From an uncultured bacterium (GTDB lineage Bacteria > Bacillota_I > Bacilli_A > RFN20 > CAG-826), in the NCBI GenBank assembly GCA_949297275.1, contig CASFQR010000023.1, positions 1-35,721 on the forward strand: a DNA stretch of 35,721 bases. The letters run 5' to 3'. A program made the position numbers and the translations under genes. The notes under the pieces are model-generated. The model was not told where the DNA came from and did not search any database. It saw nothing but the letters and a program-made list of their open reading frames with translations. Positions 1,847 to 29,652 of this stretch are shown piece by piece. How positions within the stretch are numbered: the stretch's first letter is position 1; the number at the start of each line of letters is the position of its first letter.

Positions 1847-4063
1847 TTAATTTGTTTTGCGTTTGCGCATGACAATGAACACTAAGGCGGCTAGTAAAAG
1901 CAAGGCTGAAGTAACAACAGTAATAATGATAATATTGTTATTGTTGTTAACTAAATTTAATGCATTACTCGCACTGACGATTTGATTATTTTCATCAAAT
2001 GTATCACCGTTAGCACTTGCCCAAGCACGTAATCTAGCGTACGGTTGAGCATATTTTTCATCACTAACAAATGTCACTCGTTGGGTGTCGGTTAATAAAG
2101 CATATGCTTGTTTAGCTAAATCATACCAACCTTCAGTGATACATAAACCAGTACCTGCTTCTTCATAGCTAACTTCGGTATGCATTACTCTATCAACAAA
2201 TTTGTCGAGTACATCTACATCACTATAAACTTTCGTAATAACCCCATTTAATTCTTTTGTAGTTCCAAAATCTAGTCTAAAAACAAGCATTTCAATAACA
2301 TCACCAACTACTAATGAATTAGTCGTTGAGTTAGTTAAGAAATCTTGAGGATTATTAAATACATATTCACCAGTTTTGTTATCGAATTTTAAGGCTGATG
2401 TAGTGACTGTCGAACCAAAGACCAAAATTGATTTGCTACTATCGACAAAGTCGGCAATATGAATATTACCATATTTAGTTGGATCAGTGCTGTCATCATA
2501 TTGGCCTAAGATGCTAATACGTCCAGTTACACGATAAATAACTGTGTTATTAGCTTCAGTATTTAAAATATCTGCAACTTCAATATCAATTGGATCTGGT
2601 TCAGCAAATAAAACAGTTATATTAACAAAATCAGAATAGATTACATCGTTGACAGTTATTGAGGCAGTAATTTTCGCTATACCACTAGAAATACCAGTTA
2701 CTATACCATCTTGAGTTACGGTTGCAATCTTATCGTTTTCACTACTCCAAACAACTGTTACATCAGGGGCATTTAAAACCGATGCATAAAGTTTGATTGT
2801 TTCATTAACATCAACTTCTGTAACGCTGCTTTCAATAGTAACTATTGGAGATGAGGCATCTTGATATTCAACAGTTATTGAATTTAGGTATAACGAATTA
2901 ACAGTTGCAGCAACTTCGATTACTACACTTTCACCAGTTTGAATTGTATATTTCGTTTCAATTTTTGGTGTGATATCAATGAAATTTGATGAATATCCAG
3001 TTGAACCAGGGAAATTAGCAAATGTTGTTGCTGACAAAAAATATAATGTAGTTGAACCAGCAGTTATATTAATGCTTCCTGAACCTGCACTTTTATTTGA
3101 TTTCATTGATAATGTTACATTCTTAATTTGATAGCCATCATATCCTTGTAAAGTGAGAGTTGATGAATGACCTTTTGTCATTTGATAAAGGGTATTATAA
3201 GTATTTTTGAATGTCGCTGATGAATTTTCTGGCGGATTTCCTAATGTATCGACAGCACTTGTAGTTGTGATTTTATATTCTGCAATTAAAGGTTCATTAA
3301 GAACATTTATATTAAAAGTTTTACTAGCAGTTTTATCTTTATAAGAAGCGTTGATCGTTAACACCATCATGCCAATGGTTGAAGGCACTGTTTCCGGATT
3401 AAAGTTTATTGTGCATTGTGAAGTTACATCGCTAGTGGAGCCTTCGTCGTATGTCGCAGTAACTTTAATGCCTGATGTATCCCATTGACCGCCTGCATAA
3501 ACTTCGGTTGGCATTGTTGAATCATCTAAACTGATTCCAGTCAAAACAGCATCTTCCGAAATTGTTGAGCAATATGTTACATCGATTTTTGTGATTTGGT
3601 TTGTGGCCGCTGGATTACTAATTTCAACGCTTGTACAATCTGTTAAATCTGTTGTATACACAGAATTATTTTGCGTCCATCCTTCGGATACACTGTTCAT
3701 AGTCACGCTTCCATCAGCTGTTAATTTAACCTCTTTTAAATAAAAATTTTCCTCTACTGATATAGTAATTTTACCAGAGCCCGTTTTGTAAAAGCGCCAC
3801 GAACTATTCTTAGCATAATATTTGCAGTTATGTCCAGTGCCAGATCCTACAATTGTTACCACTCCTTGTGTAATTCCGGGGGCTTGACCAGATACTTCGG
3901 CATCATTCCATCCGTATTGATTTGCTATTTCTGAAATAACAAAACTTTCCACTAAATCTTCTGCCTTAACTTCTTTAACTTCAATGCCTTTATTAACTCC
4001 AATCGTAAGCATTAAAGAGAATAAGCCAACTAAGCCTACTTTTAAGAAATTATTTTTTCTCAT
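1847..4063 (-). CDS. Secreted, membrane-anchored surface protein with Big_3 and Big_2 Ig-like domains
   Basis: A 738-residue paralog of the protein at 65-1777. The first 34 residues (signal peptide) are identical. A beta domain covers about 40-168 and Big_3 about 173-255 (TGISLDDSTMPTEVYAGGQW, closely matching the partner). A further beta domain covers about 260-410. A Big_2-like domain covers about 413-490 (VVWSSENDKIATV, GIVTGISSGIAKITA). An OB-fold-like segment covers about 500-620, followed by a helical C-terminal region and one TM helix with RKRK at the end. No LPXTG is present. The gene is convergent with its paralog and shares a terminator with it. Upstream DNA back to 4127 is identical to that of the partner, so the two are expected to be regulated alike. 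Function is unknown; a cell-surface location is inferred. Confidence 0.85.
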   Translation of the reverse strand: MRKNNFLKVGLVGLFSLMLTIGVNKGIEVKEVKAEDLVESFVISEIANQYGWNDAEVSGQAPGITQGVVTIVGSGTGHNCKYYAKNSSWRFYKTGSGKITISVEENFYLKEVKLTADGSVTMNSVSEGWTQNNSVYTTDLTDCTSVEISNPAATNQITKIDVTYCSTISEDAVLTGISLDDSTMPTEVYAGGQWDTSGIKVTATYDEGSTSDVTSQCTINFNPETVPSTIGMMVLTINASYKDKTASKTFNINVLNEPLIAEYKITTTSAVDTLGNPPENSSATFKNTYNTLYQMTKGHSSTLTLQGYDGYQIKNVTLSMKSNKSAGSGSINITAGSTTLYFLSATTFANFPGSTGYSSNFIDITPKIETKYTIQTGESVVIEVAATVNSLYLNSITVEYQDASSPIVTIESSVTEVDVNETIKLYASVLNAPDVTVVWSSENDKIATVTQDGIVTGISSGIAKITASITVNDVIYSDFVNITVLFAEPDPIDIEVADILNTEANNTVIYRVTGRISILGQYDDSTDPTKYGNIHIADFVDSSKSILVFGSTVTTSALKFDNKTGEYVFNNPQDFLTNSTTNSLVVGDVIEMLVFRLDFGTTKELNGVITKVYSDVDVLDKFVDRVMHTEVSYEEAGTGLCITEGWYDLAKQAYALLTDTQRVTFVSDEKYAQPYARLRAWASANGDTFDENNQIVSASNALNLVNNNNNIIIITVVTSALLLLAALVFIVMRKRKTN

Positions 4064-23853: not shown

Positions 23854-25182
23854 TTATAAATCAAGTGAATTAATGTCTATTAAAAAATCTAGGAGATTGA
23901 TTCTTAAAAAACCTTCGCTTGTATAAAATGGTTTATAATCATTTTTTACAATAATAACTTTCTTAAAAGAATCATTAATATTTCTTAACGAACGATATTC
24001 TTGTTCTTTTTTCTCCTCATCATTTATTTCTAATGTAACTTGGATATAGTATTTTTTGCTACCTTTTGTGGCTACAAAATCTACTTCAGTTTCTTTTTCG
24101 ATGTAAATTGGTTTATTGTTTTTATCTAATCTATCAGTTTTAGAGTGAAATTTAACTGCTCCAACATCGACACTAAAACCACGATATCTAAGTTCGTTAT
24201 AGACGATATTTTCCATTAAATCAGTTTCATCAACATCTCTAAAATTTAAAATGGCATTTCTTATACCTACATCTTCAAAATATATCTTAAAAGGGGTGCC
24301 AATATAAGTTCTACCTTTTACATCGTATTTTAAAACTCTATTTGTTAAATAAGCTTCTTCAAACCATTTTATATAGTCCTTGATAGTATCATCCATAACA
24401 CTAAGATGGTAGTTGCTTTTAAATGTGTTTTCTATTCTAGTAGGATTTATAGGCGTAGAAATCATCGAGGCAATAACCCGTAAAGTTTCCTCAAGATTAT
24501 TCTTGTTGGCGGTAGGATGCCTTTGCATTAAATCTTTAAAATAAGTTTCTTTGACGATTGAAATAGCATGATTTACCTTATTTGCATCACTAGTTTGTAA
24601 TTGCACTAGTGGGATCCCTCCATAACGAATATATTCATCTAATGCATCTCTTTTATCGATGTTTACCCCTTTTAAATATTCATTAAAAGATAATGGCAGT
24701 AAATGAATCCTATATCCTCTTCCACCAAATTCAGTGTCAACTTCACTAGATAAAAATCTAGAATTACTGCCCGTAACATAAACATCTAAATTATCTTTAT
24801 ATAAAAAGGAATTTAAAACTCTAACAAAATTTTCTAAGTTTTGAATTTCATCTAATAAAAGATAATAAAAACCATCTTTTTTAGTGTTATCATCGATATA
24901 AGATAAAAACTTCCTGCTATCGATTAAAAATTGGCCTTTAACTTTTTTTGTCGTTAGTTTATTAGGCAAATATGAATCTAATTTCATGATGTCTTTTTCA
25001 TTATCGAAAGCAAATCTAATTATATGTTTAGGATCAACATCATTTTCTCTAATCAAATAATTGTAAAAAATATCATTTAGCAAAAAGGATTTACCACATC
25101 TTCTCACACCTGTAATTACTTTCACTAATTTATTGTTTTGACTATCGATTAATTTTTTTAAATATATGTCTCTATTAAACAT
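23854..25182 (-). CDS. AAA-type ATPase with DUF4143 domain
   Basis: A 442-residue protein. The N-terminal P-loop domain has Walker A TGVRRCGKS (about 24-32), Walker B LLLDEIQ (108-114) and a sensor-like TGSNS (137-141). The C-terminal half has the DUF4143 type of layout, with YRIHLLPLSFNEYL before it and ETEVDFVAT plus YIQVTLEI near the end, resembling a nuclease-like fold (E/D-x-K-like positions not certain). Such genes are abundant in host-associated bacteria and mobile regions; their role is not settled. AAGGAGG lies 5 nt before the ATG at 25182; the longer in-frame start at 25257 lacks an SD. It lies alone in the island. Confidence 0.88.
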   Translation of the reverse strand: MFNRDIYLKKLIDSQNNKLVKVITGVRRCGKSFLLNDIFYNYLIRENDVDPKHIIRFAFDNEKDIMKLDSYLPNKLTTKKVKGQFLIDSRKFLSYIDDNTKKDGFYYLLLDEIQNLENFVRVLNSFLYKDNLDVYVTGSNSRFLSSEVDTEFGGRGYRIHLLPLSFNEYLKGVNIDKRDALDEYIRYGGIPLVQLQTSDANKVNHAISIVKETYFKDLMQRHPTANKNNLEETLRVIASMISTPINPTRIENTFKSNYHLSVMDDTIKDYIKWFEEAYLTNRVLKYDVKGRTYIGTPFKIYFEDVGIRNAILNFRDVDETDLMENIVYNELRYRGFSVDVGAVKFHSKTDRLDKNNKPIYIEKETEVDFVATKGSKKYYIQVTLEINDEEKKEQEYRSLRNINDSFKKVIIVKNDYKPFYTSEGFLRINLLDFLIDINSLDL

Positions 25183-25191
25183 AATGCCTCC

Positions 25192-25303
25192 TTTTTTCTT
25201 AGAACTGAGGATTTTATCGACATCATTATAATTTTTTCGAGGGAAAAATGCAAACATACATATATTTTTTTCTTAGAACTGAGGATTTTAACGATATGAT
25301 TAT
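25192..25303. repeat. Direct repeat pair upstream of the ATPase gene
   Basis: A 38-bp unit at 25192-25229 recurs at 25266-25303 (period about 74 bp), both containing CTTAGAACTGAGGATTTTA with minor differences. The first copy carries the SD side of the ATPase gene. It could be a duplicated promoter segment or operator. Confidence 0.75.
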
Positions 25304-25342
25304 TAGCATTTATAATTTCAATTGATGTAATTACTAATTAGA

Positions 25343-25387
25343 AACTAGCAAAAAATTATCGATAACATTTAAATTTTTCTGCTAGTT
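25343..25387. repeat. Long A/T-rich inverted repeat
   Basis: AACTAGCA (25343-25350) plus an A-run pairs with a T-run plus TGCTAGTT (25380-25387). On both strands the arms are A/T-rich, resembling an element end or weak terminator. Confidence 0.55.
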
Positions 25388-25451
25388 ATTTATTTTTTTG
25401 AAAGCTATCTCTTTCTTCATACCTTATTTGTATAAAAGCATTATGAGGCAT

Positions 25452-25477
25452 TCGCACTATGGTAGTGCGAGTTTTTT
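25452..25477 (+). terminator. Intrinsic terminator hairpin, orphan
   Basis: Arms TCGCACTA and TAGTGCGA with loop TGG, then GTTTTTT. No plus-strand gene precedes it in the island. It may end transcription reading out of the region upstream of the ATPase or belong to a lost gene. Confidence 0.7.
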
Positions 25478-25573
25478 AAATATTTTTACTATTTTGATGG
25501 GCAAGATAAGACTTAAAAATTTATTGATATATAAGCGTATATTAGTAAGGTTTACTTTTAAAAAAGGACATAT

Positions 25574-25700
25574 AATGATGTAACATCATAGGTGCTTATT
25601 AGAATTGTCTCTTCGCTATCGCTTTAATACAAAAGATGCCGTTACTGTTGAAATGATACTTTTACTAAAAAGTGGTCCAAGTTACAAAAGTGGCCACACA
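25574..25700. mobile_element. Insertion-element end remnant
   Basis: Contains a perfect palindrome ATGATG-TAA-CATCAT (25575-25589), then CTTCGCTATCGCTTTAATAC followed by spaced TTACT motifs. The same arrangement (CGCTATCGCATTGATAC followed by CTACTAG motifs) forms the right end of the element at 27154-27426. It is followed by GTGGTCC and GGCCAC half-sites (25673-25698). It reads as a diverged right end of a related element. Confidence 0.4.
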
Positions 25701-25728
25701 AGAATTAAGAGACCCGAAAAACAGGTGA

Positions 25729-26118
25729 TCAGTCCTCATCGCTTTTTCCATGGTCAATTACCCATTGCAAAAGGCCGTCATAATCAATTTCACCGGCTGC
25801 TACGTTTAAAAAAACCGAAGCCAGTTCTTCTTGCGTATAGAAAAGCGAAACTCCGTTTAATGCAAGAAACACGAGCATTGCGTGTGCACCGATTCGCTTG
25901 TTGCCATCTAAGAAAGGGTGATTTTGCACCAACCCGCAGGCTAGACGCGCCGCTTTCTGATACACGGATTGAAATAATTCGGTTGAATCAAAGGTTTGGA
26001 ACGGAGCAGCGATAGCCGAATCTAAAAGTCCCTCATCCCGCAAACCATCCAAACCTCCCGTTTCCATTACCAAAGCATGGTGCATAGCGATGATTTGTTG
26101 TTTGGAAAGGACAATCAC
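25729..26118 (-). CDS. doc: Doc-type (Fic fold) toxin of a toxin-antitoxin pair
   Basis: A 129-residue protein of the death-on-curing family. The active-site motif HPFLDGNKRIGA is at 67-78; in studied Doc proteins this fold phosphorylates elongation factor Tu and stops translation. The start is a GTG that overlaps the antitoxin stop codon (GTGA at 26115-26118), a standard coupled toxin-antitoxin arrangement. Codon choice and GC content are visibly higher than in neighbours, which suggests transfer. The motif is complete, so the toxin looks functional. Confidence 0.93.
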   Translation of the reverse strand: MIVLSKQQIIAMHHALVMETGGLDGLRDEGLLDSAIAAPFQTFDSTELFQSVYQKAARLACGLVQNHPFLDGNKRIGAHAMLVFLALNGVSLFYTQEELASVFLNVAAGEIDYDGLLQWVIDHGKSDED

Positions 26119-26372
26119 TTCGCCAATTCCTCATAAGCTGTACGATTTTTTTCAATAAATTGCTTGGAGAGTTTTTCTACGGAACTATCTGTTGCCATTT
26201 GCATCTTAGTTCCTGTGCGCTTAATCTCAAAAGGAATACGTTGTTCCCGAACAGCTTGCTTCGCAAACATGGTAATGGCAGCGCTTAAAGAAAGTCCGAG
26301 ATCGCTAAACAATTCATCAGCTTGGGCTTTAAGCTCTTCATCCATGCGGATTGTAACATTAATGTTAGCCAT
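26115..26372 (-). CDS. RelB/DinJ-type antitoxin
   Basis: An 85-residue protein with an N-terminal ribbon-helix-helix DNA-binding part (MANINVTIRMDEELKAQADE, then LGLSLSAAITMFAKQAV) and a C-terminal toxin-neutralising tail. RelB/DinJ antitoxins usually pair with RelE/YafQ toxins; pairing with Doc is a mixed combination also seen in nature. AGGAGGTG lies 5 nt before the ATG at 26372; a longer frame from 26435 would run into the promoter. The antitoxin probably represses its own promoter. Confidence 0.92.
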   Translation of the reverse strand: MANINVTIRMDEELKAQADELFSDLGLSLSAAITMFAKQAVREQRIPFEIKRTGTKMQMATDSSVEKLSKQFIEKNRTAYEELAK

Positions 26373-26402
26373 AAAAACACCTCCTATTCGAATTACTTCT
26401 AC

Positions 26403-26431
26403 ATTATACAGCAAAACGAATGATTTAACAA
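26403..26431 (-). promoter_or_regulatory. Promoter of the antitoxin-toxin operon
   Basis: On the minus strand TTGTTA, a 17-bp spacer and TATAAT, the -10 preceded by TG. It lies about 30 bp upstream of the antitoxin ATG. Confidence 0.8.
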
Positions 26432-26663
26432 TCATATTACATAATAATTATATGTATTTTATTTGCAATGCAATGAATTTCAACAGCGGAAAGAGCAGAC
26501 ACCTTACTAATAAGTTAATAAGCATTTTGCACAAATTAATAAGCTTCGACAACTCATAATTGACATCCTTATCCATAATTAAAATCGAGATGCAGTGCTC
26601 GAGATTTTGAGTGTGTCATATTTCTTGCCGCTGAGGATACTACAAAAATCTTATACTACAGCC
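26432..26663. other. Gene-free AT-rich spacer
   Basis: No convincing gene. An imperfect hairpin with AAAATCGAG and CTCGAGATTTT arms is at 26581-26608. Confidence 0.5.
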
Positions 26664-27153: not shown

Positions 27154-27426
27154 GGTATCATTTTTCTAGTAGAGAAACGTTTATTTAGTAGGATTTCATT
27201 TTTCTAGTAGAACCAATTTCTTAAAATCCGTTGGTTCAAATCAATTTTTCTCTACTAGCAAAACGCTGAAAATTAAAAAATGCCCGATTTCTCGAGCAAA
27301 TATCATTCACTTCGATTCCTTTACTTTGTATCAAAGTGATAGTTATAAGATGTCTTTGCGCTATCGCATTGATACAAAACGCGACCCCTACTAGCAAAAT
27401 GAAACCCTTACTAGATAAACGATACC
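27154..27426. mobile_element. 273-bp MITE-like element with GGTATC ends
   Basis: The left end starts GGTATCATTTTTCTAGTAG. The right end, read on the minus strand, starts GGTATCGTTTATCTAGTAA, matching 16 of 19 positions. CTAGTAG motifs recur at 27166, 27204, and inverted at 27252, 27388 and 27408. A hairpin GTATCAAAGTGATAG / CTATCGCATTGATAC is at 27328-27375. No transposase is encoded, so it looks like a non-autonomous element. A partial copy lies at 29461-29652 in the same orientation. It ends 11 bp from the kinase gene stop codon. Confidence 0.6.
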
Positions 27427-27436
27427 ATTTTCATTC

Positions 27437-27967
27437 TTAAATTATTTCTTCATCACCATTCCAGTACTTAATTCCCCAATTATCAAAATCCCATTTTGCA
27501 TCGTATAAATTGCATTCGTAATCAATGTAATAAATTAAGTTGTCCTTTTTATTAACGATAAAGTTTGTTGGGTAATAGTCAATATTAAGTCTTGCATTAT
27601 AAATATTAGGAAGCATGTCTCTCATTTGCTTAATATAAATCGTTATATCTTTTTTCGATTTAATTAAATCAGATAAGACTGGTCCTTCAATATATTCTTT
27701 AATGATTATTTCTTTATCTTTATCAACTGCAATTAATTTAGGAATTCTAATATCAGTTTTAAGAAGACGCTCATAGTCATATAATTCGGATTCGATTTTA
27801 TTACCAAATTGATAATAAGAACAAGGTTCATGATGGATTTGTTTTAATACATATTCTTGGTCATTATATTTTACTAAATATGAATATCCGCCTTTACCAT
27901 GCCCTAAAAGTTTTATAATTGTGTAATCTTTATTAAATATATTAACTAAATCATCGATATTTAACAT
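27437..27967 (-). CDS. Small protein-kinase-like phosphotransferase
   Basis: A 176-residue single-domain kinase fold. A glycine loop LGHGKGGYSYLV, lysine strand YVLKQI, hinge IIIKEYIEGPVL, catalytic loop NIDYYPTNFIV (D and N in the expected spacing, with N replacing the usual H) and metal-binding IDYE are all present, in the order of aminoglycoside/choline-kinase-like enzymes. It is much shorter than typical kinases because the C-lobe is reduced. An AAGGAG overlaps the end of the regulator gene; ATG 27967 is 1 nt after that stop. A role as protein kinase, small-molecule kinase or modulator of the regulator is open. Confidence 0.8.
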   Translation of the reverse strand: MLNIDDLVNIFNKDYTIIKLLGHGKGGYSYLVKYNDQEYVLKQIHHEPCSYYQFGNKIESELYDYERLLKTDIRIPKLIAVDKDKEIIIKEYIEGPVLSDLIKSKKDITIYIKQMRDMLPNIYNARLNIDYYPTNFIVNKKDNLIYYIDYECNLYDAKWDFDNWGIKYWNGDEEII

Positions 27968-27968
27968 A

Positions 27969-29318
27969 TTAACTCCTTGTTTTTTTAATAACTTCCCAAT
28001 ATCCGTATTGATTGCTGCCAACCCTTATTAGCATCTTTTTATCAACAAGTTTATCAGTAATTCTTTGAACAGTTCTTATCGTTTTGTTTATTTTCATAGC
28101 AATTTCTTTTCTAGTAATCTTTGGATTATTTTCTATTAAATCAAATACTTCTTGTTCAATTTTATTAAGTGAAGAAAAAGCAGTGACATTAGGAGTGACA
28201 AATGCAGTGACATTCGTTTTTCTGTTAAAAGTAAAATAAAAACCATAGGCAGTATTTTCGCTAGACCAACTAATATTCTTTTCAGAACATGAATCATTCA
28301 TTCTTTTGAAACCAGTTCCAGATTTTTCAACATCTTTACATCTATATAAAACATCTAAAATAATTGGGTTTCTTTTAATCGAGGAAAGATCCTTCTCAAT
28401 AAAATCATTTGGTGTTAATCCGTCAGGAAAAGAACCAGGATTAAATATTGTTAATTTATTTGGGTGAATATTTATTTCAATTTCTGGAGTTGGATTATAG
28501 ATTGCATGAGCAAAAGCGTTTATTAAAATTTCTCTTATTGCCCTTAGCGGAATTTCTGGAGTTTCTTTTCTAACTAAACCTATTTCAATATCCCAGTTAA
28601 TATGGTTAAGAATATAAATCATGCCTTCACGAATCAAATTATAAATATTTCCTTTAATCACTTTTAAATCAGTAAAAGTAATTTTACTATCTGTTGCAAA
28701 ACAAGCTAATTTAAGTGAGATATTTGCTTTTTTTCCAAAAAGAATATTTGCGGCGTTATTTATAACTCCATTGTGAAATAAATCTAAAATTGTTAACAAT
28801 TGCTCTTTATCATATTTATCAAGTGCAAGTCTTCCACAATTAACAGCTTCGCCATAATATTCTTTTAAAGCATCATCATCGATATCTTCAATCGCAATGG
28901 ATGATTTTTCTTTTTCCCAACTATTTGAATAATCCTCCTCTTTGATTAATTTTATAAGTTCATTTCTTGTCATATGTCTATTTTGAGTTCCAACTCGAAT
29001 TAAAAACCTGCCAAAAGCAGAATAGGGTCTATGATTCCCATAGAAAGAAACTTCTATAATTTCTTTGCTTTCATATACAATTCGTTCAACTGTCGGAATA
29101 ATTCTTGGTTCGATATCTCTTAAGATTGAATCAGTAAGATTTCTAATAGTCGAGTCTGAAATTACTTGTCCCTTCAATTCACCATTATCGAAAACTCCAA
29201 ATAATACTTTTCCATAGCCATGCTTATTCAAAATTGCGCCAATCGATTCAATCGCTTGATGCAATTCAGAAGTTGATTCTTTAAATTCTAAGATTTCACT
29301 TTCTTTGCCAAAATTCAT
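27969..29318 (-). CDS. AlbA_2 / GHKL 'RecG-like' transcriptional regulator
   Basis: A 449-residue protein. N-terminal AlbA_2 (DUF4325-like Schlafen-type) domain: ESEILEFKESTSELHQAIES and KVLFGVFDNGELKGQ. Central region leads to a GHKL-like ATPase fold with AIREILINAFAHAIY (N-box) and GTGFKRM. Then a repetitive linker NVTAFVTPNVTAF (369-381) and a C-terminal winged helix (383-449, ITRKEIAMKINKTIRTVQRI). Often misnamed ATP-dependent helicase RecG-like; no helicase motifs are present. AGGAGG lies 6 nt before ATG 29318; the longer frame to 29468 lacks an SD. It is followed directly by the kinase gene. Triple GTGACA repeats lie both upstream and inside the linker-coding DNA. Confidence 0.88.
   Translation of the reverse strand: MNFGKESEILEFKESTSELHQAIESIGAILNKHGYGKVLFGVFDNGELKGQVISDSTIRNLTDSILRDIEPRIIPTVERIVYESKEIIEVSFYGNHRPYSAFGRFLIRVGTQNRHMTRNELIKLIKEEDYSNSWEKEKSSIAIEDIDDDALKEYYGEAVNCGRLALDKYDKEQLLTILDLFHNGVINNAANILFGKKANISLKLACFATDSKITFTDLKVIKGNIYNLIREGMIYILNHINWDIEIGLVRKETPEIPLRAIREILINAFAHAIYNPTPEIEINIHPNKLTIFNPGSFPDGLTPNDFIEKDLSSIKRNPIILDVLYRCKDVEKSGTGFKRMNDSCSEKNISWSSENTAYGFYFTFNRKTNVTAFVTPNVTAFSSLNKIEQEVFDLIENNPKITRKEIAMKINKTIRTVQRITDKLVDKKMLIRVGSNQYGYWEVIKKTRS
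28183..28214 (+). repeat. In-gene copy of the GTGACA iteron array
   Basis: GTGACA at 28183, 28195 and 28207, exactly 12 bp apart. The 32-bp unit is the perfect reverse complement of the one at 29347-29378. It encodes the linker NVTAFVTPNVTAF of the regulator on the minus strand; 12 bp equals four codons, which explains the four-residue peptide repeat. Confidence 0.9.
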
Positions 29319-29346
29319 TCTGCATCCTCCTAGGAATATTGTAACA

Positions 29347-29378
29347 AATGTCACTGCATTTGTCACTCCTAATGTCAC
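29347..29378 (-). promoter_or_regulatory. Upstream GTGACA iteron array of the regulator gene
   Basis: On the minus strand GTGACA three times with 12-bp spacing (plus-strand TGTCAC at 29349, 29361 and 29373), with weaker neighbours TGTAAC (29340) and TATCAC (29387). It lies between 29 and 60 bp upstream of the ATG, downstream of a possible minus-strand TATAGT near 29397-29402, so binding would block transcription. Likely the operator of the winged-helix regulator (inference). Confidence 0.65.
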
Positions 29379-29460
29379 CGCATTTTTATCACCGAAACTA
29401 TAATTATTTTTGCTCAAATAGTAATTGTTGTAAGAATATATAAAGATGACAATAAATAAA

Positions 29461-29652
29461 GGTATCATTTTTCTAGTAGAGAAACGTTTATTTAGTAGGC
29501 TTTCATTTTTCTAGTGGAAACAAAATTTAAAAATCCGTCGGTTTGAACCAGTTTTTATCTACTAGCAAAACGCTCAAAATTAAAAAATGCTCGATTTCTC
29601 GAGCAAATATATTTATCTTGACACCATTTGTTTGTATCATAGCGATAGTTTA
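29461..29652. repeat. Partial second copy of the 27154 element
   Basis: Starts GGTATCATTTTTCTAGTAGA, matches 27154-27345 over most of its length in the same orientation, and keeps the GTATCATAGCGATAG left hairpin arm. The right end is missing: the copy stops where tRNA-Leu begins (encoded CCA at 29658-29660). Confidence 0.85.

Follow-up and report, generated by a model that had tools for sequence, protein, structure and literature searches.

Why should the DNA that codes for a linker within a bacterial regulator carry, as a perfect reverse complement, the repeat that precedes the same gene? The question is posed by contig CASFQR010000023.1 of an uncultured bacterium (assembly GCA_949297275.1; GTDB lineage RFN20, CAG-826), whose 35,721 nucleotides were analysed as a whole and are called the window below. 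Comparison with homologs favours, with good probability, an answer in which the upstream repeat is a private autorepressor operator and its counterpart a second operator at the gene's 3' end.

The regulator gene and its two iteron arrays

The features of the locus, all on the minus strand, are as follows.

27437..27970: small kinase-like gene, 177 aa, presumed to belong to the same operon; overlaps the regulator stop codon; weak Pkinase/RIO1 and PD-T4-6 matches
27969..29318: regulator gene, 449 aa (Pfam; start from the ribosome binding site and homologs; AlphaFold2 model, pLDDT 88)
Residues 6-117: SLFN_AlbA_2 domain (PF04326, E 1e-18)
Residues 279-348: HATPase_c_4 / GHKL domain (PF13749, E 1e-14)
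Residues 384-427: winged helix HTH_24 (PF13412, E 3e-5)
28038..28169: DNA coding for the winged helix, immediately following the linker array, with recognition helix NKTIRTVQRITDKL
28183..28212: linker iteron array, cores 28183-28188, 28195-28200 and 28207-28212 (TGTCAC in gene direction), coding for the tether NVTA-FVTP-NVTA
29326..29331: ribosome binding site AGGAGG (from the sequence)
29338..29343: predicted -10 box TACAAT
29349..29378: upstream iteron array, TGTCAC cores 29349-29354, 29361-29366 and 29373-29378 (GTGACA in gene direction)
29361..29366: predicted -35 box GTGACA, the middle iteron (5/6 to TTGACA), 17 bp from the -10 box, which is the spacing peak across the inverted class

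The stretch 28183-28214 reads GTGACATTAGGAGTGACAAATGCAGTGACATT, and 29347-29378 is its perfect 32-nt reverse complement, so that the three GTGACA/TGTCAC units at exact 12-bp spacing described in an earlier note on this DNA are indeed present; a repeat search reported a single inverted pair here, 28169-28218 / 29343-29392, 50 nt long and 90% complementary. The linker peptide N-V-T-A-F-V-T-P-N-V-T-A was likewise read correctly, as residues 369-380, encoded by the linker array. Residues 369-381 form the only internal stretch with pLDDT <50 in the AlphaFold2 model of the window protein, and the tether is predicted to be disordered. The regulator frame is open to 29468, beyond the start codon, which is the ATG at 29316-29318 (AGGAGG lies shortly before it, and homologs start there); the array at 29347-29378 is therefore non-coding and lies over the promoter.

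The upstream-versus-gene match in the window scores 37.5, against a maximum of 21 over 468 upstream/gene swaps between homologs, and the pair is thus not due to chance. Within the 1.04-Mb genome, GTCAC-N7-GTCAC occurs five times, four of them at this locus, and the backwards pattern also occurs five times. The TGTCAC motif appears, from these counts, to be private to the locus; a genome-wide regulon was rejected, since the motif pair lacks enrichment elsewhere.

The protein has the domain order SLFN_AlbA_2, HATPase_c_4, winged helix (Pfam), and its closest solved structure by fold is the uncharacterised 3lmm, followed by Schlafen and SAMD9 tRNase domains. Schlafen-type RNases have a conserved acidic triad, whose positions here we take to be E6, E11 and the region 43-45; across 80 homologs E6 and E11 are nearly invariant, and no constant Asp column occurs near 43-45.

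The kinase-like gene downstream of the regulator is translationally coupled to it and also follows the 94% homolog L039. Besides this gene, the regulator's neighbours are a Fic/RelB pair and an AAA/DUF4143 gene; no BREX core genes were seen next to it in the window. In Mycoplasmopsis arginini and Aliarcobacter, relatives sit at type I restriction loci. The regulator is probably a defence gene, possibly an anti-viral one. An island at 23854-26435, flanked by ribosomal protein genes on one side and a tRNA pair on the other, holds an AAA_14/DUF4143 ATPase (PADLOC candidate PDC-S01), a Fic/Doc gene and a RelB-type antitoxin. The regulator/kinase pair is bracketed by a direct repeat of ~190 bp (86%; 27154-27344 and 29461-29650), of which contig C14 of this genome has two more copies, one of them close to a Fic-type gene, and a fragment resembling it occurs in the Fic gene region (25596-25634, or 25605-25634; 82% over 39 bp). 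Homologs L034, L156 and L189 also have direct repeats on both sides, and the ~190-bp repeats possibly mark a cassette or island boundary. Elsewhere in the window, the convergent genes 65-1777 and 1847-4063 share an identical N-terminal signal-like sequence, MRKNNFLKVGLVGLFSLMLTIGVNKGIEVKEVKA.

Arrays that vary together across the family

Homologs were collected in genomes of the family (224), the order (279) and the phylum (392) and then in named genomes belonging to several phyla, the sample of distant homologs being small; viral contigs were searched for relatives and yielded none. Start codons were placed by alignment, probably wrongly in a few cases (e.g. L031). In 43/98 homologs the 250 bp upstream repeat themselves most strongly at a lag of 12 bp, compared with 1 among gene-body controls, and upstream arrays with a period of 11-13 or 22-25 bp occur in 56 of 108 non-redundant homologs versus none of 432 gene-body control windows. 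The upstream motif recurs inside or just behind the gene in 36 of 78 homologs, where swaps lead one to expect 3.5, and in 9 of 30 homologs of a separate set (0.8 expected). Seven-mer matches are concentrated in the linker, with 426 in 91 bp versus 166 across the remaining gene.

About 31 of the 108 homologs repeat their own motif in the linker DNA, and about a dozen do so just after the stop codon, a count that leaves out several matches to other repeats. In 61/108 a second array went undetected by the criteria used, 23 of these 61 having an upstream array. The distance from the upstream to the second array is about 1.1-1.4 kb for linker and post-stop placement alike. Some post-stop matches were not counted as iteron pairs: that of L118 is AT-rich and ribosome-site-like, and those of L156 and L189 are other direct repeats. 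That of L201 is doubtful. In L103, 83 bp (coding end plus array) are nearly the same upstream (-98..-15) and at the 3' end, as if from tandem regulator copies, and its post-stop match has the look of an array that accompanies a second copy of the gene. Other arrangements include long palindromes over the promoter in place of tandem iterons (L241, L242 and L249, a distant subgroup) and facing iterons (GTGACA...TGTCAC), whether upstream, within the linker or past the stop codon (L236, L180, L026, L193).

The motifs differ among homologs (TGTCAC, TGTCCA, TGGCAC, TGATAAGATA, TGATACAAT and others) and are alike within a locus; linker arrays are of the types TGTCAC, TGTCCA, TGGCAC, TGGCGA, TGATAC, TGATAA and TGATAG, and further units occur in post-stop arrays. 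A periodic core is present in the linker of 37 genes; 23 of them have the same periodic core upstream, compared with 13% on swapping, L170 with its drifted linker being clearly discordant. About seven motif changes are needed on the homolog tree; L062, for example, with TGTCCA at both sites, groups by its N-terminal domain with L001, L013 and L015, which have TGTCAC at both. Furthermore, paralogs within a Flexilinea genome differ in motif (e.g. AAAGCGCA, TTCGGAGAA), each motif standing both before its own gene and in that gene's linker. The flanking bases +1 to +4 agree within a locus at 0.78 versus 0.59 among same-core relatives (p = 0.0005, where, as for all permutation p-values here, the homologs are related and kinship is not fully removed) and, in the TGTCAC class only, at 0.70 versus 0.40; the two spacer positions hardly agree (0.60 versus 0.57). 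Agreement over a 10-bp unit, with spacers left out, is what one DNA-binding protein that reads the unit would produce and wholesale copying would not.

The alignment of homologs proposed in the earlier note thus finds upstream and linker repeats changing together. The case that the note named as refuting, a linker repeat lacking a matching repeat upstream, does occur in about ten homologs, a minority. Perfect linker arrays without an upstream array occur in L117, L118, L194, L247, L252 and L255, and a search of 0.3-3 kb of upstream DNA for a partner at an operon promoter found none; in L165 the core was found close to the start.

DNA-level constraint, promoter overlap and the recognition helix

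The conjecture that selection on a DNA site rather than on protein accounts for the peptide repeat is supported by codon usage and recoding. In GTCAC-type arrays, linker valine is written GTC in 23 of 24 codons, versus 47/207 elsewhere in the same genes (p = 1e-12). Random exchange of synonymous codons, drawn according to the usage of the gene in question, weakened the match at p < 0.05 in 25 of 28 genes (combined 3e-29). The motifs within a locus agree more closely than the peptide requires, and the NVT repeat looks to be mainly a by-product of the DNA site.

The upstream array overlaps the gene's own promoter, the promoter elements themselves being predictions. In the inverted class the upstream GTGACA or TGGACA comes close to TTGACA, and its distance from the best -10 match has a sharp optimum at 17 bp; in the direct class, the upstream TGATACAAT or TGATAAGAT resembles an extended -10 element. 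Such overlap predicts repression by occlusion, and an iteron doubling as -35 or extended -10 element would account for the dependence of orientation on motif: all 8 TGATA-type genes with shared cores are in direct orientation, the 15 others in inverted orientation.

In addition, motif sharing rises with recognition-helix identity once N-terminal identity is allowed for (partial r = 0.43, p = 0.0005; 0.11 for the rest of the winged-helix domain). Typical helices are R-T-(V/I)-Q-R for TGTCAC, S-E-K-(T/S)-V-Q-R for TGTCCA and T-(I/V)-Y-R-H for TGATAA. Together with the overlap of promoter elements, this co-variation lends further support to the autoregulation that had been suggested as one role of the repeat.

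Proposed mechanism, rival readings and meaning

The arrays, their co-variation with each other and with the recognition helix, the DNA-level constraint and the promoter overlap are results of sequence comparison; binding, repression, a loop or roadblock, a release signal and a role in defence are inferences. The C-terminal winged helix would bind an iteron of ~10 bp (TGTCAC with its four flanking bases) that recurs at 12-bp intervals. Binding to the upstream array, which covers the gene's own promoter, would shut off both the regulator and the coupled kinase-like gene. The linker array would serve as a second operator, placed inside the DNA for the disordered tether just before the winged helix; in other lineages the second operator would lie just after the stop codon. 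A linker or post-stop array with the same motif as the upstream array stands at a distance from it, and would probably strengthen repression, either through a bridge to the promoter array or as an obstacle to RNA polymerase towards the 3' end. Bridging, with a loop of 1.1-1.3 kb (1.16 kb in the window, as the earlier note suggested), is a serious possibility though we put it somewhat short of even; a roadblock to RNA polymerase near the gene's 3' end is a close, somewhat less likely rival, and what likelihood is left falls to other roles, or none, for the second array. In L115 the post-stop array lies directly before a terminator-like hairpin. Several homologs have no same-strand start close to the post-stop array, and for them the idea that it is the promoter of a following gene was dismissed.

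The upstream array might alone be the operator, the linker repeat being selected as a peptide, for tether length or contact, or arising by tandem slippage, so that its match is incidental or a relic. The homologs with a perfect linker and no upstream array fit this account, as do the Asn that starts each unit in many linkers and the period itself, since 12 bp equal four codons and slippage keeps the frame. We nevertheless consider it improbable, because the peptides of different motif classes (NVTx, NDKI, NDTx, NGTx, NGEI) are wholly different yet track the upstream DNA, the recoding test and the GTC bias indicate constraint beyond the peptide, the tether is predicted to be disordered, and in some lineages the second array follows the stop codon, where there is no peptide. 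Recent copying or gene conversion, with a linker copy lacking function, would explain why the 32-bp match in the window takes in the spacers, but in most loci the 10-bp unit agrees and the spacers do not, pairs occur in direct as well as inverted orientation, and the pairing is kept in homologs about 40-60% identical at the protein level, all of which makes this origin very doubtful.

The remaining readings, DNA inversion and RNA pairing, cannot serve as general explanations, since about a third of the pairs are in direct orientation. A site-specific inversion or recombination site (phase variation), of which a recombination site had been the other role suggested earlier, would suit a long perfect inverted repeat that brackets most of the window gene; inverted orientation is not essential, however, for homologs with TGATAA, TGATAG or TGATAC carry direct arrays. 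Inversion would moreover split the gene, and the list of ORFs in the window shows no evident recombinase gene, so we give this reading hardly any weight. Equally far-fetched is an action as RNA, whether by pairing of leader and linker RNA or by binding of AlbA_2 to a repeated RNA motif: complementarity in the window is perfect and AlbA_2 domains bind nucleic acids, but the array overlaps the -35/-10 region and so lies mostly upstream of the transcript, direct pairs cannot base-pair, and in inverted pairs the two RNA copies do not show one and the same motif.

The operator pair, which we prefer to all of these, has partial parallels. Iteron-binding plasmid Rep is a winged-helix protein that binds tandem iterons and represses its own gene; winged helix, tandem iterons and (proposed) self-repression recur here, but the window locus is chromosomal, with no replication domain or origin function indicated. 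LacI represses itself via lac O3 near the 3' end of its own gene, by a loop and a transcriptional roadblock (PMC3711431), and the regulator would likewise act near its gene's 3' end, as proposed from sequence; O3, in contrast, is neither a repeated array nor embedded in a protein linker, and in the present family site and recognition helix switch together. Rco of pLS20 is a looping autoregulator with two operators and several short, similarly spaced motifs over its promoter (PMC4207663), sharing autoregulation and spaced, promoter-overlapping motifs with the system proposed here, where looping too is a proposal; its operators are intergenic and close together, and its protein family is unrelated. 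Proteins with the same domain order as the window protein (Schlafen RNase, minimal histidine-kinase-type ATPase, winged helix) stand beside BREX and are treated as back-up effectors (PMC12839542), an account that makes no mention of an operator, iteron or direct repeats; in the window, by contrast, no BREX genes are seen. In the journal papers searched, no operator system is described for the SLFN_AlbA_2 / GHKL / winged-helix family.

A bolder version, in which the arrays would do more than repress and which we regard as quite unlikely, has the GHKL dimer clamp both gene ends and keep the Schlafen-type N-terminal domain idle at its own gene until an invasion that damages or displaces host DNA releases it. 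If true, the regulator would be a self-tethered immune effector with a private, quickly changeable address, one that could change quickly because operator, tether and recognition helix adjoin in one DNA stretch. Apart from this, the four-residue linker repeats (NVTx, NDKI, NDTx, NGTx) of a widespread defence-linked family would be explained as translated operator DNA. The family also offers a natural codebook of recognition helix versus DNA site, with about seven motif switches on one tree and more among distant paralogs, and private self-regulation suggests how a possibly toxic Schlafen-like protein may be kept at a low level.
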